From NCBI RefSeq assembly GCF_018320785.1, contig NC_054873.1:20674196-20738195 (forward strand): a DNA stretch of 64,000 nucleotides. Direction: 5' to 3'. The DNA comes from Cheilinus undulatus. Taxonomy: Eukaryota; Chordata; Actinopteri; Labriformes; Labridae. Position numbers and translations under genes: made by a program. The notes beneath the pieces are model-generated. The model made no database searches. It was not told the origin of the DNA and worked only from the letters and a program-made list of their open reading frames with translations. This document shows, in pieces, positions 29,262 to 58,800 of this stretch; position 1 is the first letter of the stretch, and each line of letters opens with the position of its first letter.

Positions 29262-29963
29262 TTAAACTTCTTGAAGGTGAAGTGTTTCAGGACCGTTGGG
29301 TTCCGTCTTTTCACTGGGCTGATCACCATTTTCAGATCGTTCGCTGTTTCTTGTGCGTGCCACATACATGACATATTTGATGAACACCAAGAGTAAAAGA
29401 AAGAGGATAACAATTCCAATCACCTAAAAAGTGGAGAATTATTAGAAGAAAAAAGGCCAAAAGCTGTATTTCATGTGCAGCTAGTTCAATTATCCATCTC
29501 TTACCTGAGACAAAGTGTGAAGCCAGCATGAGTGATCCCGCAGTTCCTCTAGGGAGTAACGTGAAGATATTCTACTGGTTGGTGCGCACCATTTCAGGAA
29601 GGTTTCCTTGACAGAAACAAACGTGCCTGACCAGTATGTTGTGGCACAGACCACATACCGTCCATCGATCAACAACAGGGCCACCCATAATAGGACAGGA
29701 AGAAAGTTTAAAAAATTTTTTGCATGACAACCGTGCCAACCATGAATCAGCACCATCAGCCCAACAGCTGTGGCGGCAGGAATCAAGGCTAAAAAGAAGA
29801 CATAGAAGGCGTTCCCCGCAATGGAATAACAAGGGCAGACAAACTCCTCTTCCAGCATCTTCTCCACACCGACCATGACCAAGCCTAAAACCAGGATCGA
29901 CACAAAAGGGTGTTGTTTCAACTCCTGCTGGAATGTTGCAATCATGGTTTTCTCTGCTCCCAT
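29262..29963 (-). CDS. CALHM (FAM26)-like four-pass channel protein, copy 1
   Basis: CALHM proteins are large-pore plasma-membrane channels. Two coding exons: 29505-29963 (153 codons) and 29262-29423 (53 codons plus stop), joined phase 0-0 across an 81-bp GT-AG intron; 206 residues. Exon 1 has a helix at about 20-36, then FVCPC with the CxC pair Cys43/Cys45, a helix at 52-74, a helix at 85-100, then DGRYVVCATT (Cys106) and KWC (Cys126). These four cysteines fit the two conserved extracellular disulphides of CALHM. Exon 2 starts VIGIVILFLLLLVFIKYVMY, the fourth helix, with a tail of about 30 polar residues. Known CALHMs exceed 300 residues, mainly in the C-terminal cytoplasmic part, so this is a short form. 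The ATG at 29963 is preceded after 15 nt by an acceptor (gttttgtttag), so an upstream exon exists and may add N-terminal residues (see 30039-30230). Confidence 0.8.
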
Positions 29964-30038
29964 GATGATGTTGGTGATCTAAACAAAACAAAAATGTAGT
30001 CCTCTGATCAGTTTAACCTCACATGCAACCTGACTTAC

Positions 30039-30230
30039 TTTCTGCCATTCGTACCCCTTGGCTTTCCAGGTTCCTATTCTGACATTATTTATCTTTCTAG
30101 CCTCACAGCAGGTGTGACAAAGGTCCAGTTTTGGCTCTTCTAGACAATACTCTAAAACCAGCTCCAGACCCATGCCCTTAACTGACACGTGATGGTACAG
30201 CAACCTTAGCTTACCTTGCCGATGCTCCAA
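30039..30230 (-). other. Candidate upstream exon of CALHM-like copy 1
   Basis: An open frame on the minus strand ends at a strong donor (cagaaa, then gtaagtca) at 30039. It reads GMGLELVLEYCLEEPKLDLC, then HTCCEARK and GTWKAKGYEWQK, so it is cysteine-rich. The phase is 0 and matches the CALHM exon, giving ..WQK-ITNII-MGAEK. The intron between them would be only 60 bp. In copy 2 the donor is mutated (gtaagt to ataagt) and part is deleted. In copy 3 a Cys codon has become TGA. It may be a 5' UTR exon in all copies that happens to be open here, or a real coding exon kept only in copy 1. The frame resembles cysteine-containing repeats in some uncharacterised fish proteins, but I cannot name the family. 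Confidence 0.35.
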
Positions 30231-30259
30231 CCATGCCTCCGTGATTCTTCAAACATATC

Positions 30260-31320
30260 TGAGAAGACAGTGCAGTCATTTGCCTAAAGCAACCCTTATT
30301 TAGCAACACATTGCTTTGCACCTCTCAGAGAGGTGGGGTGTATCAGACTTCTCATACTCTCTCTCTGTTTTGCAGTACACCCCTCTTTCCATCATCTTTT
30401 TTCTTTCTTTCCTCCGAACTGTTTCAAAGAGTGGTTCCCAAATGGTGATTCACTTTTGAAAATCTACAAGCCATCGGGTGCCGACAACTTTGTTTTCCTT
30501 ACATTATTGCAGATCCAGTCTGCCTTCTGCACTGTCCTCAGCTGGTTGGTTGAACTGGTGGCTGGTGCTAACTTGGATAATGTTATTTCCAGACTCAGTC
30601 TGGTCCTGATGTGGTCTTTTCTGTTTTACAAGCCTGGAGGAAGCCACATAGGCCTAAGTCACATAGGCTGTCTTCATGTGCTTGACCACTTGGGCCTTCA
30701 GTGGCTGTCAGGAACTAAAGAGCTTTTTAAAAACAATGAGGCAAGAATCAATAACTCTGACTTTAGCTCTTTTGCCATTCACACTATAAAATCGAACAAG
30801 TTAAACGTCCCCAAAGTATTTGTTGAAACTGATTACGCTGAAGTTTTTGAGGAGTGGAAATAAAGTTTCGAGTTGACTCTAGTAGAAATATATGAATATA
30901 TAAAACATTAGCAATTACTGTTTACATAAAAAAACATAAGTAACTGAAAAGAACAGTTCTTTCAGTCACGGGTACCCATTTCAAGTTATATCAGTTTAAT
31001 TTGTACATTTATTTTGGGTTAACTTTTTTTTTAACACCTAAAATTTCTGTTTATATCCAACCCAACACAACATTTGAAATTCTATATTTTTGGTAAAGCT
31101 GTAAATGTTCTCCACCCACTGCAATTTTCCTTTCTATCCCAGACTTTAATCTTGAACATTTATACCACCCAAGGCAGGCCAACTTAAGTGACTGGTGCAC
31201 ACTGAACCAGGAAGTCCTCACTCATTATGTTCAGAGCCATCCTCAGAATAATGTGATTGCTTCCCAAAGGCAGGACTTTTTTTTTTATTGAGTCAGTAAC
31301 TTAATTTATGGTACAAAAGG
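30260..31320. other. Upstream flank of CALHM-like copy 1
   Basis: Conserved non-coding sequence with close copies at 48850-49430 and 56940-57200. The plus-strand frame at 30333-30863 (176 codons) is shared by all copies, but it differs in length and is broken by deletions in copies 2 and 3. It is therefore treated as chance and not as a gene. Confidence 0.5.
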
Positions 31321-32890
31321 GTCTAATGCCCAAAGCATTTGAGGAAAACTATGCAGTTTAAGAGATGATTGTCTAATAATTTGAATAAAATGACAAAAAT
31401 ACTTAGATTGATAGAGTACTGTTTACTTTAAACTAAAATGTGTTCTATCAACTCAGAAAAATAGAGCTGAGTTAGCAGTTTGGGATTTTTAAGTTGACAC
31501 AATTCTGTTTTTTTAACGACCTTCAACTGTTTGTTTATACACTGCATAGGCTGGTAGAGCTTTGTTTTATGTTTCTTTATGGTAGAGACGGTGAGGGTGA
31601 CCCAACTGTGGGTCCCAACAAGTGATGGGTTGTTCATAAGTGAGCTGGTACAAAGAGCCAGTGTTTGAGAGCCATTTTATATTCTTCTTCTTATCATTAT
31701 TATTATCTTAAATAACTATAATCGCTATTTTTGTATGTGTCTGTGTGTTATTTGATTGATTACTATGGATAATGTTTTCCCTACACTGCTCTACCACAGG
31801 CACATCATGCATTAGGGAGTGGACACAAGCTTGGTGGTTTAACATAGTCAGATATCAGGTGGGTCAAATAGCCCAGCCAGTGAGATTTCATCTGACCCAC
31901 GATGCATTTTCAGGTGAAAGTGTATTTTGAAAAATAACTACATGATATTTTCATTATATAAAAAATTAAGCGTGATTAGAGTAAAATAACAGCACAAATA
32001 TCACTCATAGGTCATGGCACTGCTAAATTTGACAGGTCAAATGAAGCCAAACTGATACCCACATTAAAGAGCTGTTTGAGAGCTGACATAGCTGAATCTT
32101 CTGAGCTGAACCAAATGACCCGGATCACCAAAAAGAGCCGAAATCACCATCACTAGTCCCAACCCAGACTTTGAGAATGAGGAGTGTAAAGCATTTCTCA
32201 GCTTTCTGCCTTGCTCATTATGTAATCGCAATAAAACTCCCATTTAAGTATAAAATAAAGATTAAAGTCCTCTCCATAGGCAGTGGAACTTGTCTTATGT
32301 AATTTTTACCTTGGATTAATTTAATTAAAAATCTACCTTAGTGAAACATTCTCAACATTCTTGAACTTGAACTATGGTTTTGATCTCTGACTGCCTGTCT
32401 CTTTCATGGGAGAGTCTTCTTGACACATTTTTTTTTCAAGCTGTTACACTTATGCTGAACCTTTAATGCTTTTGTTCAAATCAACACAATTCAGGGAAAT
32501 TAATTTTTGAACTTAACAAAATATTAGTTTAAATCCAGAATTGTAAGAATAACTAGACACAAAAGACATTTATGCTTATTTGACACTCACAAAATCAAAA
32601 CTAAGCCTATTTGGTGGTTAGAAGTAAAAGAGTGTATTTCTTTAAATATGTGACAAATCATTTTGCAATCTTATGAGTGAGCCAAAAATTAGAAATATTA
32701 TACTTCCTTTTTTCTACCTCTCTTTTTGTGCTGAAATCTAAGGAAGTGCAAGACATGACACTGGAGAGCACTTTTAAAAAGTACTGAAGAATTGACTGTA
32801 AAAATCATACTGTATGAAACGCTAACTTTAGATTCTGTGAAAGGAGAAATTTTACTTAGATTTACTCGACACAATACAAACAAATGCACT

Positions 32891-33406
32891 AACTGTTAAG
32901 TCGCCTGGTTTCTGGGCCGCCTGAATTGTGGTTTCCTGTGGCCTTCTGGTGAAAATACAAATAGCTCACACAAAGCAAAATTAAAAACCATAGCTGAATA
33001 AACTTGACAGAGTCTTTGGCTGGATTAAGTGATTACAGAAAAAGCGAAAAGGGAGCAACCTCACAATAAACTCCTCAAGGTGCACAACAAAAAAATACTT
33101 ACAAGTAAAAGAGGTGTCAGCACTCTAAAATATCCTTTTAGGTAGTTTTTATTCAAGGCACAACGGATGCGTTTTGACTCCTGGTCTTCTTCAGCATTGA
33201 GAGACCCGACGAGGAAGAGCGCGTTAAATAAAAACAGGAAGCATACCAAACATCACGGGTACAACCTTCAAAATAAAACTTTTTCGGCTCTACCGCACAG
33301 TAATATCTTGTACAAAGACCTTGTAACTATCAATATAGATGTGTATTTTCAATAAACCACAACGACGATTACAAAATGAACATCAGACAGTACGTTATTA
33401 CAAGTA
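32891..33406. other. Stretch after unit A, no gene seen
   Basis: Homology with units B and the fourth unit stops near 32897 (gttaagt, then divergent). The segment around 33150-33200 (ttttgactcctggtcttctt) resembles fish repeat sequence. No coding region is supported. Confidence 0.4.
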
Positions 33407-33834
33407 CTAATGCTGCATTCCAGGAAAGTGGGAAGTTGGAGTTTTCCAACCTCCGAACAGGAAAAGTGCACTGGAACGCCACTCAAACGGGGAGGTCCTA
33501 GTCGCAAAGTTGGAGAAAAAATATCTACCCCGACTTCACGAGTTGCTTCAATCTGACGTCACTGAATCTGACGTTCAGCAAGGATGTAACTAAAGACGGC
33601 CGTTTACAGTATGTTTATACACCTCATCCGTCGTTTTTCCTCCTCTATTTGACTGATTGCGAGAAGGCAGGTTTGCTGGAGGTCAAAATGTGTTTTGAGA
33701 AACAAAACAAAAAACAGCTTATCGTGATCAGCCATCTTTGGTGTTTACATTCGTCTGGAACGCTTTGAGGTCGCAACTGGTACAATCCGAGTGGGATAAA
33801 TCTGACTTCCCACTTTTCTGGAATGCAGCATTAG
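33407..33834. mobile_element. MITE (second copy), complete
   Basis: Inverted ends begin ctaatgctgcattccag on both sides, and similarity extends inward about 30 bp (aaagtgggaagt). The core matches 25229-25578. No transposase is encoded. The plus-strand frame at 33738-33941 runs out of it by chance. Confidence 0.8.
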
Positions 33835-35892: not shown

Positions 35893-35950
35893 GCTAAAGC
35901 TAAGCATATATTCATATCCTGACGTCACTTCCTTCTGACGGTGGAGGGGA

Positions 35951-38722
35951 TCTTCTTCTTCTGATGAATTTTCGGCAGGCTGTACACTAGAAAGCGTAAT
36001 GCTGCCCTCCACAGGTTACATTAGTCCATCCAGTTTAGATTTTCTGATATAGTCCAGATGACCGGAGAAAAAGAACTATCGCTTTCCAAATTAGGTGAAA
36101 GTCCGCGTCAGAAGAAAATAAAGATTTGAAATAAAAGGAAGAAAACCCCGACTTAGATAATTCCCTAAACATCTGCTGTGTTTCATCCCTATATCTGTTG
36201 CACTCAAACATTACATGCTGCCGTAGGCGGTTTTACCATTAGGCAAAGGCAAGCAATTGCCTGGGGCCTCGTCCATAAGGGGGGCCTCAAGAATTTGCCT
36301 AGGTCTCTTTCCCCTTCAATTATAGCTCACTTATGTTTTTGCCACTCCCCAGGTCAGAGAAAATTATTCATAGTTTACCATTTAGAGCCATGAGGAACAT
36401 CATAAAAAGACGCATCAACTCTGCTCTCTCAGTGAGTCTTGTCCTGTCCACCTCTGACAAGTTTCTTGCACAAGGGTCTTAACAGATGTCAAAGCTGGAG
36501 GATTTTGCCTTGTAGAACCAAAGTTCTTCCCCTGAGTGAGATTAAAACAGCTGCTCTCAGATAAAAAACACTTTCTCTGGTAACTGTCCCTCAACCACAA
36601 ACGCAGACATCGCATCACGCTTTGGTGAGCGACTCAGTTCAACGTTCAGCCTGATTTCATCCTACATTACAACAAATCTGCAATGCCAGACTAATATAAC
36701 CTCATTTTATTTACATAAGATTTTATTTTATATCATCAAGAAGTGAACTTGTGGTCTTAAATACTTAAATTTAATCAGGACATCATTTAAAAATCCTGTG
36801 GCATATTTAACTCCAGCTCTCATTAAATGGTAGAAATTCTTCTCATAGGTGAAATGATTTAATAACTGAACATTCAATCCTAATCTGGACACAGACTGTC
36901 CTATGACATGTGAGGTCAGCATGTTTGATCTTGGCGCAGCTTATCCATAATTATGCACGGAGATGGCCCCGTTCATGATGCATGCAGGGATGTCAGGGGG
37001 ATTCAGAGAGTGGACATGACATTTGCTTAAAAGTCAAGTTTTTACTCAGCAGGTGAGAGTTTGTATCACTATAAATAGTAATAGCGCCGAAGTGCGATGA
37101 ATCTCCTCAAGATCTTCGTCTCTGTCTCCGTCTCTCCGTGCCTCCCTCTCTCTCTCGTCTCCTCGTTGACTCGTGCCCAGTAAAAATAAGGGTCGATCAG
37201 GCAATGTTAAATGTATGTTTATAATGAATATTACAGTCTTGTAAATTCATCATCAATGGGTCCTAAAAACGTTAAAATCTGTAAAAATGGTCATATGTTA
37301 CTCGGGCAGCATATTTTTGCCTCACCTGTTTAGATTACCTGCAGGTAAATTCTCTTTCTAAAGTAGATAATTAACCCTTTAGTGTGCAAACATGCAGCAC
37401 TCATTAAAATAATGGCTGCATCTAATATTGGATCATTTCTCTTTATAAACATTATAGCAGCCTTTACCTCAGCTTTTGTCGTACTGATGTTGCTAAAAAA
37501 TTCCCCAGCCAACAGCAGGACGTCTCATTGGAGCAAATCCGGCCCCCGACCCAAAATGAGTTTGACACTCCTGTTTTCCTACAGTACAATATGATTCAAT
37601 GAAAAAAAAAATGACTGAAAATAGAGCCTATTGTATTTTTCTCTTAATAACATAATAAAACCCCAGGTAATACAGCTGATTTGATGCAGAAATATAAATT
37701 AACTACATTAAGTTCTTAATGGGACCTTGGGCCAGATACACTTACTAAGATATTGTATCTGAAAACATGAACAGGAGAGCACATGAACTTCAGAAAATGA
37801 TGAAGAGAAGCCACAAGTTTGTGCATTAAAGTCATTTAAGCATAGAGTCTTTATTCTCATATCTTTTTGGAGGATATGTCAGATTTACGTTTGTTTTTTT
37901 TTTATTCTCTGCCTAAGGTGGATGCACTTTGTTCAGCTTGATGTCACCAACTATTCATTAATATTTAACCTAACTGATGTTGGTTATAATGCAGATTTTC
38001 TTACACTGAATGTGTTGTTAGTGGCCACTCCACACTGTACTGCTTCTGTTAAATCACGTTCATATGACTGTCATCAAAGAAGTTCAGGTGAGTGATATTG
38101 GGGGGCTCACATTGATCTTTGCCTCCAATTCACTAAAACCGCCCCTGCATGCTGCGGTGTCTCCAACTTTCCACACTGGCACATACCATTTAGATTCTTG
38201 CCTATTGTCTTAAGGTTGCTGGCCAGACCGCAATGCCCCAGTCTTAGACCAGTAAGGACAACATCATCCTTCCTCCCAGTTTTAATCAGTAGCCTCCTTC
38301 TCTTAACGGATGACTACAGAGAAAAGTAATGTCTGCCACGTTTGTCTTCTCTCCATTCCTTTTGCCATTGCTCCTCTAATTTTTCTTTGCTAACTTGAAA
38401 GCACTCAGGCTTTCCAAGAAACACATTCAAGTCAACAGTATCTTTTGAAAGGGATTTTTTTGCCAGTTGATCAGCTCTTTCATTTCCTTCTATTCCTGAA
38501 TGGCCAGGTACCCACATAAATTCCACACAACAGCCAGCTTTTCCAAGTCTATAGTGACAGCACATGATCTCCTGTAGCAGGTCAGGTCGAGCCCTCGACG
38601 CCCCGTTCTTCACTGCCAACAAGGCAACGTTAGAATCTGAACAGATAATGCTTTTAAGGGGTCTAACAACCTCCACCCACCACATGGCCCACAAGATCCC
38701 TATGAGTTCAGCAGAAAAGATC
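35951..38722 (-). mobile_element. RNase H-bearing non-LTR retrotransposon, 5'-truncated, split by a hAT
   Basis: The minus-strand frame below 38722 encodes a ribonuclease H domain: FSAELIGILWAM (catalytic Glu), SDSNVALLAVKNG (second Asp), then VEFMWVPGHSGIEGNERADQ (His and last Asp region). The first catalytic Asp is lost at the 5' truncation. The 3' end at 35951 is a short gaa-repeat tail. A perfect 38-bp direct repeat flanks the element (35913-35950 and 38723-38760), an unusually long target duplication. The first part of the 149-codon frame (38723-38763) is therefore target DNA, not element. Confidence 0.75.
36222..38147. mobile_element. hAT-type transposon nested in the RNase H retrotransposon
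   Basis: Inverted ends cgtaggcggtttta (left) and the complement of caggggcggtttta (right) are flanked by a perfect 8-bp duplication catgctgc (36214-36221 and 38148-38155). The left part, with caattgcctggggcctcg, is typical of a common fish hAT group. The interior is decayed and no intact transposase frame remains. Confidence 0.8.
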
Positions 38723-38760
38723 CATATCCTGACGTCACTTCCTTCTGACGGTGGAGGGGA

Positions 38761-40385
38761 CATATCTACCTATGGGAGGGGGTCTCAGATCTCAAAGTGG
38801 AGCTTGACAGAGTGGAGGTCTGCAGCTAGACTGTCTTGCAAAGATGTCCATTCTAAATTGCAGAATTGGCTATTTAAGATGACAGTTGAAGTATTTAAAA
38901 CAATGTTACAGATAAATGATCCAAGAAGAGAGCCACAGTTACCCAAGAGAAGAAGCTCCAGTTAACTGTAAATCTTTAACACAGATAGCTCCATCTAGTG
39001 GCCAAAAATGTTAGGGAGGATAAGAAGGTCCTAACGTTTTTCAGAACAAGATAACTCATATCTAGCATCTTCCAATACTGGAGAGTTGTTTAACAGATAG
39101 TCTGTTCATGATCACGTAATGTGATAAAACTAGCAGTGTCACTCAGTGAATAAATCAATTCAACTGAGTTGAAATATCTCATATATTTGTTCAAAATGAA
39201 TTAAAATTCTACTTCCACAGGTAGACTTCTCATGGACTTTGAAAGCCTTACAACTACATAGAGTAATAATGCCCACCATGTTAAACAGAACAAACAAAAA
39301 CAAGGATATATAAAGGTTACCAAAAAAAAAGTTATTTATCAATCGTAGTTGCTGGGCCTATATCATTACACAAGAGAAGTCCCCCATCAATAAGCACACA
39401 GACAGTAATTTTTAAATATTAATAATGTGGATGCTCAGCATCCCCACTAATTAGTAACCTCAAGGACAACAAGCTGGTAACCATGCTTACTGCTCCATAC
39501 AAACAATATCACATCACAGAAGGTATACAAGTACACAGAGCACAAAATTACAACAACTATAACAAAAAACATCCTGGTAGGAGCTCCTCATTTAGACCTT
39601 TTGGATGCTCTGGTTAGCCTGCCTCGAACCCACCACCTCAACTCAAGATCCCCGAAAGTAATCCCTCTGACCACTGTCAGGTCTTGAGCCTCATCTCTTC
39701 CATTGGCACAACACGAAACTTGAAGACATTAAAGGTATGGACACCTACATCACTCTCCCCCAGAACAATCTCTTACTCACAGCCACCACAGTCATTCAAG
39801 TCTATATGGCACATCTTCGTCAATGAAGCTGACTTCTCGCTCACAATCCTCTGTCATTTCATCCATAAAAACCAAATCAACAACCTGGCTCCCATGCTTC
39901 CTGATTCCTCATCAGAGTCAGTCACCGCGAGAGTGATCAAGCGTGACGTCACGGAGCTGCCCATAGACTGTAGAAAGAATTGGACAAACCTCATGTGACG
40001 TCAGTCGTCTGCTTACAATAGGTGGGCTAAAACGGCTTTTGAAGCCCATTCGTGGAGGTGTCCATATTGAAATCACCGTCTCAGCTAAACGTAACGCCGG
40101 CCCACTAAGTGCAACTTTCCCCTCAACCCCTCCCTTCCCCAACACCCAACTGTTTTTTTTCTGCCTTCCATCAATAGCTACACTCTTACTGTTGAAACAC
40201 CACCTGCACAACCAGCCTTTTCTGCCATTCACTCTCATCTCCACAGCACTACTTTACCAAATTCTTATGTAGTTCTCTGAACTCGTTTCAGGAACTAAGA
40301 CCATGCCTCTACCTTAACTCATTTCTGGTACCCAACGCATATCAGCGCATCTCACTCATCCATACGGCTCTGCTCAGTTCCTCAT
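38761..40385. other. Intergenic stretch with repeat fragments
   Basis: No gene recognised. About 38806-38830 (gtggaggtctgcagct) is an inverted match to 33855-33875 (agctgcagacctccac). About 39930-40080 (atagactgtagaaagaattgg and gacgtcagtcgtctgct) resembles a fish interspersed repeat. The 133-codon plus frame at 38564-38965 is mostly antisense to the RNase H domain. Confidence 0.45.
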
Positions 40386-40670
40386 AAATTCATCCTTCAT
40401 CCGCTCATCCCTCGACCCTTACCTTCATCCCCTCATCCCTCAACTCTTACCTTCATCCCCTCATCTGTCAACCCTACCTTCATCCCCTCATCCCTCAACC
40501 CTTACCTTCATCCCCTCATCCCTCAACTCTTACCTTCATCCCCTCATCTGTCAACCCTTACCTTCATCCCCTCATCTGTCAACCCTACCTTCATCCCCTC
40601 ATCCCTCAACCCTTACCTTCATCCCCTCATCCTTCAACCCTACCTTCATCCCCTCATCCTTTCACCGCTT
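40386..40670. repeat. Minisatellite, about 30-34 bp unit
   Basis: About nine imperfect tandem copies of a pyrimidine-rich unit containing ttcatcccctcatc, ctcaaccctta and cc. Units alternate between forms with ccctcaaccc, ccctcaactc and tgtcaaccc, suggesting higher-order duplication. It lies just left of the start of duplication unit B. Confidence 0.9.
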
Positions 40671-41312
40671 AACCCTTAATCTCCTTACCTCGAAATGGTA
40701 ATTATGTAGATTTAGCTCAACTTCCCACCAATCCATTATAAAAAAAATCAGCATGGAGAATGCAAACTCAAAACCTACCAGAATTCCTTGCGCTCAAACT
40801 GAAGTCATAATGTACTTATAATGTAATGAGCTATGGGTAATTCCCTCACACTAAGTCTGCAGAGATGCCCACTCACGGGAAGGGTGCATGAAGGGCTCAA
40901 AAAGTCAGCGAGAGATCCCTCACACACTTTATGATTTGACAGTGGGATGGCCCTAAGCCCTCACAGATTTAGCGTGAGCGCACCTCAAAGTCAGTGAGTG
41001 TGTGAGTGTGGATATTGGGATTGGGCAAGACACTGTTATCCAATGTTTAGGACCCTGCTGGGATTCAATCCATTAATCTCCTAGACAATAGTCAGCATCC
41101 TAACTGGCAGCTGAAAGGAAGGTGGAACTTTCTTTCAAGTGGGGAGGGCCAACCAAACCTGGGGGCAGGTGCTTACTCCCCATGTGAGGTCACTAAGGTT
41201 AAAATCTGAGAACAGCTTTTTTCAGCACACATTTTCTGAAAGGTGGAAAAAGAGAGGGTGGAAGGGAATGGATTTTTCTGGTACTTGAGGGGATTGTGGA
41301 CAGACCAGGGGG

Positions 41313-42385: not shown

Positions 42386-42904
42386 ATGAAGGGGCCTTGT
42401 TTTTCACTGATCACCTTTGCTCTACTCCTGATTCAACTATCCAGTGCAAGTGGGGGCAAAATCCTGGTGTTTCCACTGGATGGAAGCCATTGGGTAAACA
42501 TGAAAGTACTCATAGAGGAGCTGCACGCCAAAGGCCACGAGGTCACCGTGATCTGGACTTCAGACAGCTGGTACATCACTGAGAAGTCTCCCCTCTACAT
42601 CTCTGTCACACTCCCTAGGCCTAATGGATTTGAGGAAAACTTTGACACCTATTTGACTCAACAGCTGGAGCTCCGACTTCAGGATAAGCATATGTCTTTT
42701 TGGACTCACATCTGGACTCAATATCAGATGCAGCAGGTAGTGATGGATCAGTTCTCTCAGTTCCATAAAGGAATGAGTGAAATGGTTGTTCAGATGTTTG
42801 AAGATGAAAACCTCATGAAGGCATAAGCATCATTCATCTGTTTTTTATTTGTAAGGTTTGTGTGGAGGAAAGTTTTTGTGGGGAGAAAAGTTAAAAATGA
42901 ATGA
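42386..42904 (+). pseudogene. UDP-glucuronosyltransferase copy with internal deletion
   Basis: The first 146 codons match the intact UGT with very few changes, for example Arg57 to Trp and Thr103 to Met. Then, at tgaaggcat, the sequence jumps to agcatcattc of the C-terminal transmembrane exon region. The jump removes about 1,084 bp (19620-20703 in the intact copy) and creates an immediate TAA at 42824-42826. A shared gcat at the junction suggests a microhomology-mediated deletion. The whole UDP-sugar-binding half is lost, so no transferase activity is possible. The upstream flank, including the 5' splice acceptor tract, is intact, so it could still be transcribed, giving a short secreted fragment of about 120 residues. 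The last codons and original stop remain at 42827-42904. Confidence 0.9.
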
Positions 42905-44750: not shown

Positions 44751-45200
44751 CATAGGCCTAGTAGGGATTTTTACTCATCTATATCTAAAATAATATCTGG
44801 GAAATAAGAGATATATACAAAATGTCTGTCAGCATCCCACAACAGAGTCTTAAATAGCCTATTATGCTTCCTATAGAAACTATTCAAACATCAAATATTC
44901 AAACAAAGTTTAACTGGGGTTGGTGGGTAATGACTTTTATAACCACAGCTTTTATAAGCTACTACTTTTCAGTGTATTTAAGTTTTATAGCCCATGTGCT
45001 TGCAAATATAAGGCTTCCTACCCTGTTTCACTATATTTTTTTCTTACAGCTTGTGGCACTAAAACAGCTTTTCAAAATCCTAATTGCTGCAGGTTTGTGC
45101 CGTAAAAATATCACTAACAGACTTTAATGTGCTTTTCTTGGGACAAAACTATTTTTCAGTGATGTACAGAAAACTAAGAAATACAATGTTAGCATCACAG

Positions 45201-45640
45201 TTTTAACATTGAAGATAATACATGCTCATTCTGTAAAAATGACTTTGAAACTATAGACCACATGTTCTTCTCATGTATTATAATTAATAAGTTTTGGATA
45301 GACATCCATAGGTGGATCAAACAAAAAATTCCATCCTTTCAATCTATCACAGAAGAAAATGTTATATTTGGCATTTTACTTAAAAACAAAAATGATGAAC
45401 TCCGCATAAATGTAATTTTATGTCTGGCTAAATTTTTCATACACAAGAACAGAGCTTTAAGCTCAACCCCTGTTTTTGAATCCTTTTTGAATGAGTTCAT
45501 GTTATACTTGAAGTCATTGGATGTCATGAAGTCTAAAATTGCACTAAAACTGTTGGACAATCTGAAAAACTTTTCCACGGACTGAGAGAACTGATCTAAA
45601 ATTTTTTCATAAGGTAGCTAGCAAACTTACTGCAGCTGCG
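45201..45640 (+). mobile_element. L1-type LINE ORF2 C-terminus
   Basis: The plus strand encodes the zinc-knuckle CSFCKNDFETIDHMFFSC, then FWIDIHRWIKQKI and later LCLAKFFIHKNRALSS, FLNEFMLYLKSLDVMKSK. This is the C-terminal end of L1 ORF2 in one continuous frame to the stop at 45585. It is 5'-truncated exactly where unit B homology to unit A ends. Its 3' end is unclear, with no clean poly(A). Confidence 0.75.
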
Positions 45641-45925: not shown

Positions 45926-47887
45926 TAAACAACCAACATTCACTAAAAAAACATAGGGATCTGACAACTGAAGAAGACAAACAAAAATAAAGCCTCAAAC
46001 AAGGTATTAATCCAACATCGACAGAATCCAAGCAATACAATACAATACAATAACTTTATTTATCCCTGAAGGGAAATTCATTTGTCTGGAGTCTCATCTG
46101 TTTATGGTAGAATTATATAGTCTTACAAGAACCCAACAACATGAACTTTGACCTAACGTACTGGTAATATAAGATAATGTAAGAGAGGTAAATGCTGTAA
46201 AATGAAACAAAAATTATAAAAGCAGTTAAAGCATAAAAGGGTGATTTAAGTGGTGAATAATGTGTCATTTAAAAAGATATTAAGGAATGTTTGAACATTA
46301 CTGAACAATAAGTTCATTAGGAACTTTTCTTCCATAAATTCCCTCCAAAAAGTCATGTCACTTCCTGAAAGTGGATTCATGGGAAATGTAGGGGTTTTGT
46401 ACAGTAGGCTAATAACCACAACCTAACAGGGTGGAGCTTGGTTTTCGGGGACACACGTTTAGTCATAAAAATAATAATAATACAATTTGTTTCTATTATT
46501 TTTATGTATGATTAGAGAGATTATAACTTGATCCATGCAATAATAAAGTCCTTTATCTTTTTATTTATTTTCATATTATAATGGTGTCACATTGAAACTG
46601 AAAAAAAAAATGTTCTGGGAACATCATAAAAATTAGCATATGTGAATAAAAAAAGCATCCAAAATAATTGAAAAATACATTTACATACATTATTGTGAGT
46701 AATTATTAAATAGTAGACCTCAGTCTTTTAAAAAAGTCTTTTGAAAAATGAATTTTATTTACTTTGAGTAAAAAATTAAGAGTTAAATCATGGGGACAGA
46801 AAAGTCACCAATAGCAAGGAATGGCCCGCATAAGCTTTGAGAGCAACCAATGGGCTATTTACAGTTAATAAAAACCTCTCTGGCCAAGTCTGTTTTGTGT
46901 GCTGTGGTGAAATTCTGACCTTACATGGTTCAAAGGTGTGCTTAAGGTGTCTGCAAGAGAAACTGAGGGAAATTGCATCCGAATCTGGGAGTACACTGAA
47001 AAGTGTGACAACCACAATGACTATTCAATCCATGGACAATCACAAAGACTCTGTATATACACTCCAACTAAGAAAAAAATGTTTTAATACTGACAATATG
47101 TGATGTTCTGCTATTGTTTAATAGAGGGTTAAAAGCAAATGTATTAACTTTTAATGGCTAGTAATGTTAGCATAATGTAATGCTGACATTCTATTTGGTA
47201 CCAAATCATGGTAGTGTGTTCTCTGCACCCTGCCAAACCTGGGCTCCCTGCTCTCTACAGCTGAGAGGCAGAAGAGCTACAGGTGCATTGCACCTAGTTT
47301 TAGTCATTTTGGTTTTTGTCAGTTTTAGTAATCCCAGATCTATTTGTCTTAGTCTTAGTCTAGTTTTTATCATGGAGAAAAAGGATGTTGACAAACATTT
47401 TTAGTCATAGTTTTAGTCAGCGAAATGAACACTGATATGCACTCGGCTCCACAAGAAGACAGCTAACGTTAGCCTTTCATCGCTAGCATCAGACATTGGT
47501 TGTTTTTTAAACCATTTAACAAGTTTTGGGAGATTTTGGGTTTTTATCATTATCCTACTGTTTCTTTTTCTGCATTCTTTCACTCCGGTTAAGTTTATGA
47601 AAGTATTGAATAGGTTGACTAAAAATAAAAGGAAATAAAATCATAGAAAATTCTCAGTTGTTTAAAATGAGTTGGAGCCTGGCTCTAAGACATTTTGTCT
47701 AGAGTACTACTTGACCAAGGGTTGATTCTGAACAAGGATCTGTGGTGGTTATGAAAGTTGTGAATGTGGAAAGCCTTCTCTAGAACCTCCCTACTCTCAC
47801 AGTTAAAGACTGTACCAAGAAAGGTCCTAGCTAAGATATCCACAGGTCCCTAAACAAAACATTTGATCCTTTGTTTCTTTTAAACTT

Positions 47888-48581
47888 TTAAACTTCTTGA
47901 AGGTGAAGTGTTTCAGGACTGTTGGGTTCCCCTGGTTTCTTCTTTTGACCTGGCTGCCCACCATTTTCAGGTTTTCTGCTTCTTCTTTCAAGCACCATTT
48001 GCATGATGAACATCACGAGTAAAATAGAGAGGATAACAATTCCAGCCACCTAAAAGGTGGAGAAATATTAAAAGTATTAAATAAACCAAAAAGTTGTATT
48101 TCATGTGCAGCTTGTTCATTTATCCATCTCTTACCTGAGACCAAATGTGAAACCAGCGTGAGCGATACCGCAGTTCGTCTGTTAAGTTGGGTGTTGTGTT
48201 GTTTGGTGTGCACCATTTCAGGAAGGTTTCCTTGGCAGAAACAAACGTGCCTGGCCGGTCTGTCGTAGCACAGACCACATACCGTCCATCAAGCAACAGC
48301 AGGGCCACCCACGAGAGGGCAGAAAGAAAGCTATAGGCCATATTTTTATACCCACAGCCGTGAATCAGCAGCATCAGACAAAAAGCTGTGGATGCAGGAA
48401 TCACGAAAAATAATGCGACAAAGACACCGGTCCACCAAGCAGGATAACAAGGGCAGGCGAACTCCACTTCCAGCATCTTCTCCACACCGACCATGACAAA
48501 GCCACAAAACAGGTTCGACACAACGGGGTGTTTTTCCAACTCCTGCTTGAGTGCTGCAAACATGTTTTTCTCTGCTCCCAT
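47888..48581 (-). CDS. CALHM (FAM26)-like four-pass channel protein, copy 2
   Basis: Two coding exons: 48135-48581 (149 codons) and 47888-48049 (53 codons plus stop), spliced phase 0-0; 202 residues, no internal stop. It begins MGAEKNMFAALKQELEKHP, then has a first helix, FACPC (CxC cysteines), two more helices, GRYVVCATT and a KWC cysteine. Exon 2 gives the last helix (VAGIVILSILLVMFIM) and a basic tail (LERRSRK) ending HLQEV, the same last residues as copy 1. Many amino-acid differences from copy 1 occur through the helices and extracellular loop, although the flanking DNA is nearly identical. The upstream exon seen near copy 1 has lost its donor here. The start is the first ATG after the acceptor (..tttcatttag). 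Likely functional, short CALHM form. Confidence 0.8.
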
Positions 48582-49754
48582 GATGATGTTGGTGATCTAA
48601 ATGAAACAAAAATGAAGTCCTCTGATCAGTTTAGCCTCACATGCAACCTGACTTATTTTCTGCCATTCAGACCCCTTGGCTTTCCAGGTTCCTATCCTGA
48701 TATCATCCATCTTTCTAACCTCTCAGACCTCTAGACAATACTCTACAACCAGCTCCAGACCCATGCCCTTAACTGACACGTGATGATACAGCAACCTTAG
48801 CTTACCTTGCAGATGCTCCAACCATACACCTGTGATTCTTCAAACATATCTGAGAAGACAATGCAGTCATATGCCTAAAGCAACCCTTAGTCAGCAACAC
48901 ATTGCTTTGCACCTCTCAGAGAGGTGGGGTGTATCAGACTTCTCATACTCTCGCTCTGTTTTGCAGTACACCCCTCTTTCCATCATCTTTTCTCTTTGTT
49001 CCTCTCCTCTTCCTTGTTTATTTCTGGTGACTCACTTTTTAAAATATACAAGCCATCAAGTGCCGACAATTTTTTTTTCCCATACATTATTGTGGATCCA
49101 ATCTGCCTTCTGCACTATCCTCAACTATTTGGTTGGGCTGGTGCTAACTTGGATAATGTTATTTCCAGACTCAGTCTGGTCCTGATGTGGTCTTTTCTGT
49201 TTTACAAGCCTGGAGGAAGCCACATAGGCCTAAGTCACATAGGCTGTCTTCACATGCTTGACCACTTGGGCTTTCAGTGGCTGTCAGGAACTAAAGAGCT
49301 TTTTAAAAACAATGAGGCAAGAATCAATAACTCTGACTTTAGCTCTTTTGCCATTCACACTACAAAACCGAACAAGTTAAATGTACCCAAAATATTTGTT
49401 GAAACTGAAATTGAAAGGGTCTAATGCCCACAGCATTTGAGGAAAACTATGCAGGTTAAGAAATGATTGCCTAAAATTTTGGATAAAATAACAAAAATAC
49501 TTAGAATGATAGAGTACCCTTTACTTTACACTGAAATGTGGTCTATCAACTCAGAAAAATAGAGTTGAGTTAGCAGTTTGGGATTTTTAAGTTGACACAA
49601 TTCTGTTTTTTAACAAGATTCAACTATTTGCTCAAACAGTGCATAGATTGTAGAACCTTGTTTTATGTTTCATTATGGTAGAGAGGGTGAGTTTGACCCA
49701 ACTGTGGGTCATAACTGAGCTGGTACAAAGAGCCAGTGTTTAAGAGCCATTTTA

Positions 49755-49794: not shown

Positions 49795-49795
49795 G
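49757..49795. repeat. (TTA)n microsatellite
   Basis: About 13 uninterrupted tta/att trinucleotides. Unit A has only a degenerate version at 31681-31712, so the array expanded after duplication. Confidence 0.9.
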
Positions 49796-50937
49796 TTATG
49801 GAGTCATTAAAGCAATGTAAAATTTGCTGTGAATTGGTTATGAATTGAAAAATCTCCTTACCTTAAAAAGAGAATACCCAGAGATTATTACTGTCCTTGA
49901 AGAGGTAGTGAAACATTCTCACGCTCTTGAACTTGAACTACAGTTTTGATCTCTGACCGCCTGTCTCTATTGTGGGAGTTTCTTCTCGAGATTTTTTTTT
50001 AACCTGTTACACTCATGCTGAACCCTTAAAGCTTTTGTTCGAATCAACAATTCCAGGAAATTAATTTATGAACTTAACAAAAAATTAGTTTAAATACAGA
50101 ATTTTAAAAATAATTTGATACAAAAAGACATATATGCTTATTTAACTCACACAAAATCAAAACTAGGTTATCAGATGGTTAGAGGTAAAAGAGTGTATTT
50201 CTTTAAATATGTTAAACCAGTATTTTTCAATCCTATAAGTGAGCCAAAACTTAGAAATATTCTACTTTCTTTTTTCTCTCTCTTTTGTGCTGAAATCTAA
50301 GGGAACAAAGACATGACACTGGAGAGCACTTTTAGAAAGTACTGAAGAATTGTCTGTAAAAATCAAACTGTATGAAACACTTACTTTAGATTCTGTGAAG
50401 GAAGACATTTTCTGAGATTTACTCAACAAAATACAAACAAATGCACTAACTGTTAAGTGATTTCTGTGTTGTGTAGCATTGTGTTAAGCTGTTTCCTTTC
50501 TTCTGTTAACTGACATAAGTTATTTTCACATAAACATAAACAGACCACAGCAGACATTGTCTGCAAAAGTGGAAGTAAAAAACATCTGTATTTAAGAGTG
50601 AACTAGAAAAGCACTCAAAGAGCACAGGCCTCTGCCATTAGCCCGATCTCCCAACAGTAAAGAATCATTTTAAAAATTCCTGGATCCAGACAGTGATCTG
50701 GATCACTCCCAAAATCTGATCAGTTCTTCCTTGTGCCATATTTGACATTTCCTGAAAATTTCATCAAAATCCAAACAATACTTTTTGAGTTATGTTGCTA
50801 ACAAACAAACTAACAAACTTACAAAAAAATAAACAGAATATGTTAAATTTTATGGAAACTTGGATTTTTTGGATTTCAGTAGAAAGTGAAATAAACATTT
50901 CATTTCCAAAAAATTTGAATTTTCTGGCAATAATTTC

Positions 50938-53040: not shown

Positions 53041-55850
53041 AAATTTATTAGACCACCTGTCATATTTGTCTCAAAGACCATTCAGCATCATGAAGTGCTT
53101 TAATGCGGACTCTCCACATTTTACCATTTTGAAAAGGAATGAGGATTTTCAAACTAAATTCACCTTTTTATACCCAAATTTGAGCCGGCTCACTGGGCTT
53201 CTCTGAGAAGTCAGAAATGAATCAAGCATAACATTCAACTACTAAAACTCATTTTTCTCTTCAGGAATGCAAGTAAATAACTACAATTTGACATATTAAT
53301 CAAAATAATAATAATATGCTTTACTATTTCTTTGGGTTTTTTTGTAAATCAGTAAATTTGAAAATCCATGGATAACAGTAATAATGATATTTTAGCATTA
53401 AAAATATCATTTGGGTTAAAAAGCTTCTATATATTGGTGTATTAACCATTGCAGAAACATAAAAAATGATTTTGTTAATTACCAATGCTGTTAATTTAGG
53501 GCAGCTGTGGCATAAACCTTACTAAACCTTACTTTGGTTAGGGTTAGGGTGGTCTAATAAATTTGTTAAACACTACATTATATTAAAACCTTTATATTTA
53601 AACATTTATTTATTGTGCCTATAGAAAAAGTTCATCATTAAAGTAAAGAAAGGCTTTTCAGAATGCATTAAACACCTGGTTAATGTCTTTTTGTGAAATA
53701 TGCACTCGGCTAATGTGCCACAAGAAGACAGCTTACGTTAGCCTTTCATCATAAGCATCAGACATTGGTTGTATTTTAAACCATTTAACAAGTTACACTC
53801 ACAGTTCCTACACTCATAGTTGCAGACTGTACCAAAAAAAGGTTATGGCTATGACATCCACAGGAAATGTGCATGTTCTTCTCAGTCTGATCACAAGTAA
53901 CACAACGTTTTTTCCCTTTTCTTTCTGTGATTTAGTTTTACGGAAGAATTATTTGATTGACTTTTATTCAGTCTGATAGCCCAGGCTGAAAATCTCACAT
54001 GGAATCACAGCGACCTCTCCTGGTCATTTCAGTTACTACAGTTTAAGTCACGCCCAGATTTGGACACATCTTCTTCATGTATAACTGTGTTTATAACCAA
54101 TTAGCTGTGTTTCTAATGTTTATTGTGTGATAGTCTTATTGTTGTTATTCTAAAATGTCCTAACCATTGATGCATACATGTTCTTGTGGAATTATGACAT
54201 GAAGAAGAGTGGAATGGTTTGATCCAGAGGAGGGCTTAGCAAAAATCACATGAACACTCCTTATAAGTCTTGTATTTTAATTTATTTCCATCTTAGGATG
54301 CTCTGAAAACAAAATAATATATATATATATAACAATGTAAAGTAACCAATAATTACAAGAAAAATAATAATAATCCCATTTGGTTGGACCACTCGAGTGG
54401 TCTTAGCTGAGTAGTGTTTGACTTAAAAAGCTATAATTCACCATCAGCCCAGCAGCTGTAAAGGCAGGAATAAAAAAAAATGACAGACCAGGCAGGTTTT
54501 GATATTTAATTCATTTTTTATAAAGTTATGTACATGGTATGTTTTAAAATAGGAGTATATACTATTACTATTTATTATTCTTATTCTTAGACAACATTCA
54601 AAAATATGCTGACAATGATAGAAAAACATGTTAGGATTGCAAACCAAGCATCAATTATGTAGAGAAAGTATAAAAACAAAATGTACGTCATATTTTTAGG
54701 AAACACCACAAACAGAATGTTTCAGTGATTCAGAAGCCTCATTCAAAGATCACTGAAGAGGCTCCTTTTTATTTGGGTAAAAGCAATCATAGCAAGTAAA
54801 AATAATCTACAACAACAACAACAACAACAACAATAACAACAAAAAAACAAAGAACAAGAGGGCATACGAAAATGCGAAATATGAAAACCCAAATAACCAC
54901 CCGTGTTTAATCAGCTATTAGGAGAACATCATATCTCAAAGCCGTCATATCGTGATACTTCAATGCCATTAGGGCAGGTGGAACTTACAAAAATGAAATG
55001 ATTTGCTCACTGTTGGTGCAATATCAATTCTTCTTCACAGATCATACATTTTAGTATACTGCATGCCACTTTGACGAACTATAATTCACCAATTCATTGC
55101 TTCAGTGTGTAAATATGCATCTACTTAACTATCATGCTTGATATGAAGACATCTTGGGGCTCTCCAATAGGCTTTAACCTTGCTGTTGGGGCCAGGGGTC
55201 TCTATTTTGGTGCTATTTTACTCACTCTTGACCCCTTAATATCAAAATACATGTCTTACTGAATGTAAAGTTAGAGGTTCTCATCATATTTGATGCACAC
55301 CTAAATGACAATGAGGTCTCAGGCAATTACCTTCCTTTGCCTAATGGTAAACCACCAAAACCCTCCTTCAGCCATATCAACTCCCCAAACTCCCACCCTA
55401 AAAAGAGCTATTTTATCTTACTGGTTAAAGGGTGTCGTTGATGTTCTGAAACTTACAAGATATGTCACTGAGATTTTAAAGGTTTATTAAACATGTCTTC
55501 AGTCAGGTCATTGAAGGGTCATGGCAGCATCAGCGTATACAGGCTTAAAAAATTCTATATATACTAACCAAACATCGAATGTAACATTAAATGTAACAAC
55601 CAGACCTTCTAGACCTGCATGCGAATAATATATTTCTTATTGTATCAATATAAAAAAACAAGAGAAACGTCTTTTTTTTTGTTTTCTATAATGTATTATT
55701 AACAATGTTGTTACTGTGGCTATTATGTTCCATATATGATACAAACTTCAATATCCCTGGTTAAATAACTTTAGGTTGTTGAAATCTTCAGGGGTTTGGG
55801 TTGCATTTGTCCATTCATGAGGCGTTGGTATGTCCTGAGGCTAGACCAGT
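53041..55850. other. Scrambled region with relics of duplication units
   Basis: Contains an AT-rich insert (53.04-53.58 kb), then pieces matching unit A in order: 24196-24235 (at 53590), about 28240 and 28805-28880 (53640-53790), 29160-29220 (53800-53870) and a 36-bp piece of CALHM exon 1 (54441-54476). After that a UGT-side piece appears (54700-54740, like 23478-23514). A (caa)n microsatellite is at 54809-54846. No intact gene. The order suggests a decayed CALHM copy followed by the start of another unit. Confidence 0.55.
54441..54476 (-). pseudogene. Tiny relic of CALHM-like exon 1
   Basis: ccatcagcccagcagctgt and the following aggcaggaat match the helix-2 region of the three intact CALHM-like genes (for example 29746-29782 on the plus strand). 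Nothing else of the exon survives around it. Too short to be certain. Confidence 0.4.
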
Positions 55851-58800
55851 TAAGAACCACAGCTCTAGAGCCTCCCTGCATTCACAGTTAAAGACAAAAT
55901 ATACTGCTCCAAGCTAAGACATCCACAGGTCTCTAAGCAAAAACATGTTTCTTTTAGACGTTTGTGGATTCCTGAAGGCGATGTGTTTCAGGACTGTCCA
56001 GTTCTTCTTCATCATTTTGGCCGGGCTTCTCACCATCTTCAGGTTGTTGGCTGCGCCTTGTGCACGCCATGTACACGATGAGCACCATGAGTAAAAATGA
56101 GACGATAGCATTTCCAGTCCCCTAAAAAGTGGAGAATTATCAAAAGTATTAAATAGACCAAAAAGCTGTATTTCATGTGCAGCTTGTTCATTTATCCATC
56201 TCTTACCTGAGACAAAATGTAAAACCTGTGTGAGCGATCCAGCAGTTCCTTTGCTAAGTTGGCTGTTGTGTTGGTCGGTTTGCACCATTTCAGGTAGGTA
56301 TCCCTGGTAGAAACAAACGTGCCCGGCCAGTCTGTCTTGGCACAGACTACGTACTGTCCATTGAGCAACATCAGGGCCAGCCACACAATGGAAGGAAGAA
56401 GACTATACAAAGTACTTCCTTTGCCACCCCAGCCGTGAATCAGCACCATCAGCCCAGAAGCTGTGTAGGCAGGGATCAGGAAAAAAGGGGCGACAAAGAT
56501 GGCATTCCAAGTGGGATTGCAAGGGCAGGCAAACTCCACTTCCACCATCTTCTCCACACCGGCCATGACAAAGCCAAAAACCAGGTTTGACACAACAGGG
56601 TGTTGTTCCAACTCCTGCTTGAGTCTTCCAATCATATTTTTCTCTGCTCCCATGATGATGTTGGTGATCTAAACAAAACAATAATGAAGTCCTCTGATCA
56701 GTTTAGCCTCATATGCAACTTGACTTACTTTCTGCCATTCGTACCCCTTGGCTTTCCAGGTTCCTATTCTGACATTATCCATCTTTCTAGCCTCTCAGCA
56801 GGTGAGACAAAGGTCCAGTTTTGGCTCTTCTAGACAATACTCTAAAACCAGCTCCAGACCCATGCCCTTAACTGACACGTGATGGTACAGCAACCTTAGC
56901 TTACCTTGCTGATGCTCCAACCATACACCCGTGATTATTCAAACATATCTAAGAAGACAATGCAGACAGTTGTCTGCCTAAAGCAACCCTTAGTCAGCAA
57001 CACATTTCTTTGCACCTCTCAGAGAGGTGGGGTGTATCAGACTTCTCATACTCTCTCTCTGTTTTGCAGTACACCCCTCTTTCCATCATCTTTTTTTCTT
57101 TCTTTCCTCTGAACTGTTTCAAAGAGTGTTTCCAAATGTGTTTATGTCTGGTGACTCACTTTTTAAAATATACAAGCCATCAGGGGCTGACAACTTTGTT
57201 GATGATTGTCTAGTAATTTGAATAAAATGACAAAAATACTTAGAATGATACAGTCCTGTTTACTTTAAACTAAAAAAAAAAAACGTGTTCTATCAACTCA
57301 GAAAAATAGAGTTGAGTTAGCAGTTTGGGGTTTTTAAGTTGACACAATTCAGTTGTTTTTAACAACCTTCAACTGTTTGTTCACAGGCACATCATGCATT
57401 AGGGAGTGGACACAAGCTTGATGGTTTAACATAGTCACATATCAGGTGTGTCAAACAGTCCAGCTAGTGAGATTTCATCTGATCCACGATGCATTTTTCA
57501 GGCAACAATGTATTTTGAAAAATAACTACATGATATTTTCATTGTATTAAAAAATTAAGCATGATTGGAGTAAAAAAACAGCACAAATATCACTCATAGG
57601 TCATGGCATTGCTAAATTTGACAGGTCAAATGAAGCTAAACTGGTACCCACATTAAAGAGCTGTTTCAGAGCTGACATAGCTGGCTTTTCTGAGCTGAAC
57701 CAAATGACCCAGATGACCAAAAAGAGGCAAAATTCCCATCACTAGTCCCAACCCAGACTTTGAGAACCAAAATTTATGACATGGTGATTGTCCTCAAACC
57801 ATCTACCTTTACTAACCAAACTTGATGCTACCCACTACTCTTAATGAATAACAAATAAAGACACCACAGTCATCTCAGGGAGGATTTCCTATAATATTTT
57901 ATTTTTATTCAAAGGTGGTTAAATGGAGAAAAGAGTTGTAATATTTCATAAATATTGTTATGGAGTCATTAAAGCAATATTAAATTGGCTGTGAATTGGT
58001 TATGAATTGATTTTAATGACAAGAACAGCTCATTGTTGACACATTATGCAATAGCAAAAAAACTCCCAATTATGTATAAAATGAAAATTAAAGTCCTTTC
58101 CACAGGCAGTGGAACTTGTGTAATTTTCACCTTGGATTAATTTAATTAATTATCTACTTATCTTAAAAAGAGAATACCTAGGGATTATTGCTTTCCTTGA
58201 AGAGGAAGTGAAACATTCTCACGCTCTTGAACTTGCACTATGGTTTTGAGCTCTGACCGCCTGTCTCTATCGTGGGAGTTTCTTCTTGACACCTTTTTTT
58301 TTTTAACCTGTTACACTTATGCTGAACCCTTAACGCTTTTGTTCAAGTCAACACAATTCCAGGACATGAATTTATGAACTTAACAAAATATTAGTATAAA
58401 TCCAGAATTTTAAAAATAATTAGATACAAAAAGACATTTATGCTTACTTGACACACAAAATCAAAACTAAGGTTATTTGGTGGTTGGAATTAAAAGAGTG
58501 TATTTCTTTAAATATGTGACAAATCATTTTCAATCTTATAAGTGAGCCAAAACTTAGAAATATACTTTCTTTTTTTCTCTCTTTTTGTGCTGAAATCTAA
58601 TGGAGTGCAAGACATGACACTGGAGAGCACTTTTAAAAAGTACTGAAGAATTGTCTGTAAAAATCAAACTGTATGAAACACTTACTTTAGATTCTGTGAA
58701 GGAAGACATTTTTCTGAGATTTACTCAACAAAATACAAACAAATGCACTAACTGTTAAGTGATTTCTGTGTTGTGTAGCATTGTGTTAAGCTGTTTCCTT

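Follow-up and report, generated by a model that had tools for sequence, protein, structure and literature searches.

Coding exons diverge faster than adjacent noncoding DNA in a tandem array of short CALHM-type genes of Cheilinus undulatus

Three neighbouring minus-strand genes of the CALHM type, denoted here copies 1, 2 and 3, are found in a 64,000-nucleotide stretch of the genome of the fish Cheilinus undulatus (C9:20674196-20738195, contig NC_054873.1; hereafter the window, with positions counted from its first base). The three genes share the same layout throughout, and in all three pairs their exons diverge 2-4 times faster than the noncoding DNA next to them. This contrast is accompanied by intact reading frames, by a ratio of nonsynonymous to synonymous rates (omega) that is 1.34 for the three copies and 0.27 for the branch joining them to a paralogue elsewhere in the genome, and by segments with conflicting histories. 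Diversifying positive selection on the exons and recombination among the copies, acting together, probably explain the pattern, although far from certainly; selection and conversion are each supported, and neither alone suffices.

In the codon-aligned coding sequences (CDS) of the three copies, 21-24% of the bases differ, compared with 6-10% in the adjoining introns and 5′ noncoding DNA. When the 5′ block, the 5′ noncoding exon, intron 1 and intron 2 are pooled as the noncoding set, the CDS and noncoding differences amount to 126/597 and 48/485 between copies 1 and 2 (Fisher test, p=4.9e-7), 142/597 and 31/512 between copies 1 and 3 (p=4.3e-17), and 124/600 and 40/489 between copies 2 and 3 (p=5e-9). 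Gapped BLAST alignments put out-of-frame gaps in the exons and thereby yield a lower CDS count for copies 1 and 2 (104/595). The Kimura two-parameter (K2P) distances, given for the pairs 1-2, 1-3 and 2-3, respectively, are 0.093, 0.039 and 0.082 in intron 1; 0.245, 0.265 and 0.210 in exon A; 0.135, 0.120 and 0.062 in intron 2; 0.222, 0.354 and 0.376 in exon B; and 0.048, 0.380 and 0.377 in the first 150 bases of the 3′ flank. The differences at codon positions 1, 2 and 3 (51/39/36, 56/46/40 and 49/35/40 for the same pairs) display no excess at the third position.

A preliminary description of this DNA, made from the sequence alone, had claimed that the coding exons are more divergent than their flanks, and this claim is borne out in all three pairs. 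Its two counts by eye were reproduced when recounted on the alignment, with 2 of 190 bases differing between the 3′ flank at 29031-29220 and its counterpart in copy 2, and 13 differences between copies 1 and 2 in the first 83 bases of the coding sequence. The sliding-window comparison of the aligned loci that it had proposed gives, in 100-column windows of the three-way alignment, identities of 66-92% for the coding parts and 86-100% for most alignable flank windows, the exceptions being the vicinity of 30403-30492 (69-91%) and the 3′ flank of copy 3. The latter, which is old or foreign, shows 70% identity to the other copies over 132 bases past the stop codon and has no BLAST match beyond 55863, so that for copy 3 the contrast is limited to the 5′ side and intron 2. 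Between copies 1 and 2, for which the 3′ flanks are 93-95% identical over the measured part (28760-29261), the contrast is cleanest; the noncoding divergence of this pair is itself uneven (0.00-0.135 in 250-base bins).

The encoded proteins belong to the CALHM family. Against the PF14798 profile (Ca_hom_mod, cut-off 25 bits), the spliced products of copies 2 and 3 score 36.4 and 44.2 bits, whereas copy 1 (20.2 bits) falls below the cut-off. When exon A of copy 3 was searched against the genome, four loci were retrieved at E 0.001, three of which are the window copies; the fourth, at C1:29972203-29972655, is followed downstream by an exon B, with which it forms a gene of 205 codons built on the same shortened plan (hereafter the C1 paralogue). 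Its PF14798 score is 33.7 bits, so that three of the four short genes lie above the cut-off. When a profile of the three copies was compared with solved structures, human CALHM6 (6ytv) ranked first (whole-sequence E=4.2e-7), followed by CALHM5 and CALHM4. The CALHM6 match consists of two stretches, S1-S2 and S3-S4, which singly reach only E 0.03 and 0.12, and a phmmer search of the solved structures with exon A of copy 2 alone returned nothing at E 0.01, CALHM6 being reached by the three-protein profile alone. Kyte-Doolittle windows above 1.6 mark S2 and S4 in all three copies, S3 in copies 1 and 3, and S1 only in copy 1; S1 of the short copies aligns to CALHM6. The term channel-like protein used in the preliminary description is thus right at the level of the family; the short proteins may assemble as membrane channels.

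Four cysteines (43, 45, 106 and 126 in copy 1) are fixed in the three copies, as had been noticed at the outset, and four are also present in the C1 paralogue. In human CALHM2, four extracellular cysteines form the two conserved disulphides of the family, C46=C130 and C48=C162 (PMC13183375). All four short proteins terminate about 30 residues past S4 and lack the cytoplasmic C-terminal helix (CTH); the region after S4 is spanned by five exon-2 matches (L011-L015) that belong to full-length CALHMs of this genome. A missing C-terminal exon was rejected at the sequence level, each of the four frames terminating within exon B. Most of the S2-S3 linker is absent, which makes it about 24 residues shorter than that of CALHM6. 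CALHM4 carries a short cytoplasmic helix in the S2-S3 linker region, and in both CALHM4 and CALHM6 the CTH forms an intracellular ring (PMC7242029). The short genes thus resemble CALHM6 in their best structural match and differ from it in length (202-206 aa vs. 315 aa for the human protein), in lacking the CTH and in the shorter linker.

Full-length CALHM genes are present in the same genome on C8 (two genes), C4 and C6; we take these to correspond to CALHM5, 6, 1, 2 and 3, and the C8 gene L007/L011 is presumably the CALHM6 counterpart. In a tree of eight proteins, comprising the four short ones and four full-length exon-1 proteins, with the split C6 locus (L010, L016, L015) left out, the short proteins form a separate clade with 100% ultrafast bootstrap, the deep nodes being weak (62-75%); the clade does not join the C8 gene L007/L011, which gives no indication of CALHM6 orthology within this sample. 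C43, C45 and C106 align in all eight proteins, while the fourth cysteine (KWC vs. xPC) is only roughly co-positioned. The FxCPC motif, the proline of S2, the tryptophan of S3, a G, a CA pair and the SQ that closes exon A are common to the short genes and all four aligned full-length exon-1 proteins, and the exon junction SQ|V appears to match the place where the exon 1 frames of the full-length CALHMs reach SQ-V. The short genes are members of CALHM that constitute a separate short lineage, with four genes found in the genome. At the split locus on C6 (820046-835712), two of the three six-frame matches are interrupted by stops, which may reflect introns within the first coding part or a damaged gene.

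Support for omega above 1 is moderate. The likelihood models are purpose-written code applied to at most four sequences from one genome, and most of their p values are chi-square approximations, with calibration by simulation confined to two tests on 198 codons, that of a single omega and that of copy 1. The Nei-Gojobori estimates of omega are 1.45 for copies 1 and 2 and 1.23 for copies 1 and 3, and the comparison of M8 with M8a on the three copies gives p=0.011. When codons and noncoding DNA are analysed jointly under a shared clock, omega is 2.67 (p=7e-14); on the clock of intron 2 alone it is 1.73 (p=7e-4), and with the hard-to-align stretches removed (134 codons) it is still 2.05 (p=3e-5), for a range of 1.7-2.7 depending on the noncoding set and the codons chosen. 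An alignment artefact was accordingly rejected, dN and dS being also the same under five MAFFT settings. Nonsynonymous sites exceed the noncoding level in all three pairs (p<1e-6), whereas four-fold sites in the two pairs that include copy 1 (7/58 and 7/55) are not significantly higher than noncoding DNA (p=0.64 and 0.081). Among the copies, the strongest signal of positive selection is that of the copy 1 branch, where omega is 2.5 and omega=1 is rejected at p=0.025 (parametric bootstrap, 200 simulated data sets); on 134 codons the same test gives an uncalibrated 2ΔlnL of 9.34. The substitutions are spread across helices, loops and tail, in agreement with the early remark that the proteins differ in both the helices and the extracellular parts.

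The C1 paralogue provides an outgroup. The best tree that includes it unites copies 1 and 2, by 5-7 log units over the two alternatives, and a single omega for the copies and the paralogue branch is rejected (p=8.5e-8). In the branch-site test with the copies as foreground, 71% of sites have an omega2 of 1.72 (p=0.0105); on 149 trimmed codons omega2 is 1.96 (p=0.0074). Among 196 sites, copy 1 has 14 private amino acid changes where the other two match the C1 paralogue, compared with 5 and 9 for the others. Most likely, the gene was at first ordinarily constrained and entered a different selective regime at about the time of the tandem duplications.

A number of results weigh against positive selection on the exons. 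Copies 2 and 3 alone give an omega of 0.81, and the free-ratio estimates for these copies are 1.1 and 0.5, respectively. The one-ratio model (M0) on the three copies yields an omega of 1.42 that does not differ significantly from 1 (p=0.053; 0.09 on ungapped codons; bootstrap p 0.095 two-sided and 0.03 one-sided); with the C1 paralogue added, the test of omega=1 for the copies gives p=0.11, or 0.062 after trimming. M8 on 134 trimmed codons (p=0.070) and the comparison of M1a with M2a (p=0.07) likewise miss significance, as does the bootstrap test of whether copy 1 is unlike the other two (p=0.06), and both branch tests and site tests can be misled when copies recombine. Synonymous changes are close to saturation on the branch to the C1 paralogue (t about 1.9), which renders the omega of 0.27 imprecise. 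When the synonymous clock is freed, synonymous sites of all codons evolve at 2.44 times the noncoding rate (p=3.7e-5); barely alignable parts of the proteins, such as the S2-S3 linker with its proportion of synonymous differences of 0.55-0.60, contribute to this excess, and after trimming to 134 codons the factor is 1.49 (p=0.155). Four-fold sites between copies 2 and 3 nevertheless differ at 15/60, compared with 40/489 noncoding sites, an excess that amino acid selection cannot cause, and direct comparisons of nonsynonymous with four-fold sites give p=0.088, 0.062 and 0.39 for the three pairs. Finally, the helices are as variable as the loops, and none of the segments can be singled out as a binding surface. 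The suggestion of diversifying selection made in the preliminary description therefore stands in the branch-site, M8 and copy 1 tests, in which omega significantly exceeds 1, and not in the global tests or in the pair of copies 2 and 3; the dN/dS analysis by pair and by site that it had called for is divided along the same lines.

The segments of the array do not share a single history. Private differences number 24 in copy 2 against 7 in copy 3 and 8 in copy 1 across the 5′ block and intron 1, whereas in the 132 comparable bases of the 3′ flank they number 36 in copy 3 and three in each of the other two; copy 2 is thus the odd one out in the 5′ noncoding DNA and copy 3 in the 3′ flank, while the CDS groups copy 1 with copy 2. 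Such a patchwork is expected if neighbouring copies exchange sequence. Since synonymous sites also outrun the adjacent noncoding DNA, homogenisation of the flanks inflates the contrast, which is best read as the sum of selection on the exons and a partial evening-out of the noncoding DNA. Gene conversion of the flanks, which had been proposed initially as the alternative to selection, is supported by the conflicting histories and the 2.4-fold synonymous excess, but is insufficient by itself.

In the scheme that we propose, the three tandem genes would have arisen by repeated duplication of one unit, the first two units also carrying a UDP-glucuronosyltransferase (UGT) gene. The four-helix plan of the CALHM subunit would be kept, as the CPC motif, the four cysteines, the hydropathy and the open frames suggest, while many residues of the helices, loops and tail would be driven to change by diversifying positive selection, most strongly on the branch of copy 1. 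Through unequal exchange or gene conversion, stretches of the introns, the flanks and the 5′ noncoding DNA would stay similar among the copies, and the contrast would thereby be exaggerated. The disulphide-braced subunit might form a small CALHM-like pore or act as a partner of full-length CALHMs, and the selective pressure would stem from something that itself changes, most plausibly pathogens or immune partners.

The least improbable rival, although an unlikely one, does without positive selection: the exons would have kept an old divergence while conversion or unequal crossing-over repeatedly homogenised the flanks and introns, exon conversion being lost or selected against. The elevated synonymous rate, which is 1.93 times that of intron 2 alone (p=0.039, 81 sites), fits this scenario, as do the change of odd copy between segments and exon B of copy 3, with K2P distances (0.35-0.38) that equal those of its 3′ flank (0.38) where the 5′ noncoding segments reach only 0.04-0.13. 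Intron 2, however, lies between the coding exons with 81-85 bases and distances of 0.06-0.135 against 0.21-0.38 in the exons, so that very short tracts would be needed; omega above 1 within the exons in the copy 1, branch-site and M8 results, 5-fold above the paralogue branch, also speaks against it, and trimming removes the significance of the synonymous excess but not that of the nonsynonymous excess. A further rival, in which constraint was relaxed and redundant copies drift towards loss, is very improbable. Values of omega close to 1 for copies 2 and 3 would agree with it, but drift cannot exceed the neutral rate and the exons diverge well beyond the adjacent noncoding DNA, unless the latter was homogenised. 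Furthermore, all three frames and the splice sites are kept; stop-free frames in all three copies occur in 0.17% of 3000 neutral substitution simulations, and hydropathy is preserved at replaced sites (r 0.49-0.59, with 0/5000 shuffles as high). With the frames, the four cysteines and the hydropathy retained, decay is not the explanation, and decaying copies are disfavoured.

It is also conceivable, if rather improbable, that the copies are alleles from long-term balancing selection captured as neighbours by unequal crossing-over, or that copies 1 and 2 are haplotypes that the assembly set next to each other. At loci of the major histocompatibility complex (MHC), divergence peaks on the exons and falls outward, as this explanation predicts, and between copies 1 and 2 the noncoding DNA near the exons is indeed more divergent (71/943, 7.5%) than that farther out (287/5526, 5.2%; p=0.0054). 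The fall-off is irregular, though, divergence rising again to 13% at 32.25-32.75 kb, the three units, which are ordered, unequal in length and marked in unit 2 by a UGT deletion, have the appearance of a true array, and the assembly consists of 46 contigs for 1.17 Gb. Selection on the exons combined with recombination among the copies thus remains our preferred reading.

Exons that outrun introns are already known from venom genes and from the MHC. In venom phospholipase A2 (PLA2) genes the introns are the conserved part, and in MHC genes the diversity is centred on the exons while recombination evens out the introns; the MHC has an antigen-binding domain, and the short CALHMs have none. A study of accelerated exon evolution within primate segmental duplications reportedly, to judge by its title, concerns a signal of this kind in recently duplicated sequence, in other genes and animals. 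The multi-copy gene families of snake venom, with KA/KS above 1 (PMC6062510) and with short exon stretches changed to unrelated sequence in the process named ASSET (PMC2711939), are similar in these respects but encode secreted toxins rather than a predicted four-helix membrane protein. How often the Ca_hom_mod domain was gained, lost or duplicated has been counted in a study of CALHM6, fish included, the parts of which covered here deal with domain counts and not with selection or a short form (PMC10768655). A search of the literature on CALHM/FAM26F, confined to titles and abstract openings and with most subscription journals outside its coverage, found no short CALHM lineage, no positive selection on fish CALHM and no CALHM exons outrunning introns, which is weak evidence for the novelty of a short, fast-evolving CALHM lineage.

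In the mouse, CALHM6 is induced by pathogen signals and aids ATP release at the synapse between macrophages and natural killer cells during infection (PMC10068325). By analogy with CALHM6, selection on the short genes might reflect an adaptive conflict, most plausibly an immune one, and the array would point to conflict acting on a CALHM-type membrane protein. Only tentatively, and with more doubt than confidence, can it be proposed that a dwarf CALHM lineage devoid of cytoplasmic domains is a fast-diversifying tandem family encoding a predicted channel, or channel decoy, engaged in an arms race, probably in immunity, with recombination shuffling and evening out the noncoding DNA and selection renewing the residues that are extracellular or embedded in the membrane. 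Natural four-helix CALHMs without the cytoplasmic ring, with open frames and under pressure to change, would provide a minimal system for asking what the ring is for.

The exons and splice sites of the short genes, predicted from DNA sequence alone, follow one order: a probable 5′ noncoding exon, intron 1, exon A (beginning with ATGGGAGCAGAGAAAA), the short intron 2 and exon B (Table 1). The predicted proteins comprise 206 (copy 1), 202 (copy 2) and 204 (copy 3) residues, and exon lengths differ among the copies by multiples of 3. The span 29262..56653 initially assigned to the genes is exact, 29262 being the last base of the copy 1 stop codon and 56653 the A of the copy 3 ATG. The 5′ noncoding region is 88-96% identical by segment among the copies, with the 16 bases adjoining the ATG identical. 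An upstream in-frame ATG in the 5′ exon was considered as the start and is possible in copies 1 and 2, but in copy 3 a stop intervenes, so that noncoding is the likelier reading of this exon. A further block 5′ of each gene is common to the three units (32216-32901, 49906-50550 and 58042-58852), with divergence of up to 13% between copies 1 and 2 in 250-base bins; it could be distal regulatory or unit-boundary sequence. Interferon-type motifs in the 2 kb upstream of each copy form no shared pattern: two IRE-like matches occur, at copy 2 only, and three GAS-like ones, two at copy 2 and one at copy 3, with none of either kind at copy 1.

Table 1. Features of the short CALHM array, its paralogue and the UGT genes (positions in the window unless stated otherwise)
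Feature	Position	Strand	Basis or remark
Copy 1 exon A (S1, S2, S3, both extracellular segments; 153 codons)	29505..29963	-	Open reading frame, splice donor CAG|GTAAGAG, alignment
Copy 1 intron 2, 81 bases	29424..29504	-	K2P 0.135 vs. copy 2, 0.120 vs. copy 3
Copy 1 exon B (S4, short tail, stop)	29262..29423	-	Alignment
Copy 1 conserved 5′ noncoding region, including probable 5′ untranslated exon 30216-30258 and intron 1	29964..30420	-	Counterparts upstream of copies 2 and 3
Copy 1 3′ flank, matching copy 2 47309-47887	28678..29261	-	Not common to copy 3 beyond ~55863
Copy 2 exon A, 149 codons	48135..48581	-	Alignment
Copy 2 intron 2, 85 bases	48050..48134	-	
Copy 2 exon B	47888..48049	-	Alignment
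Copy 3 exon A, 149 codons	56207..56653	-	Alignment
Copy 3 intron 2, 85 bases	56122..56206	-	
Copy 3 exon B	55954..56121	-	Alignment
Short-lineage CALHM paralogue	L005 3839-4668 (C1:29971838-29972667)		Without C-terminal domain
Single-exon UGT gene, same duplicon, control	19181..20782	+	Open reading frame 19073-20782, ATG 19181, PF00201 539.6 bits
Second UGT copy, 5′ part	42386..42826	+	Shortened by ~1.08 kb internal deletion, junction 42824/42826

The UGT genes of the same duplicon show the ordinary order of divergence, opposite to that of the CALHM copies: the aligned UGT CDS differ at 3 of 503 positions (0.6%), compared with 45 of 1424 (3.2%) in the flanks, the UGT CDS being masked as 19178-20764 in the flank comparison. 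The second UGT copy looks like a recent pseudogene. Antisense open reading frames at 30288-30863 and 48891-49424 were rejected as protein genes, having no credible Pfam family, and no RNA family reaches its gathering threshold in the window. The plus strand is C-rich at 38-42 kb (GC skew -0.17 to -0.20), and a minisatellite of ~28-base units at 40394-40698 overlaps open reading frames. Remains of non-LTR (long terminal repeat) retrotransposons, with an RNase H domain and a reverse-transcriptase zinc-binding domain, lie at 38314-38769 and 45193-45585.

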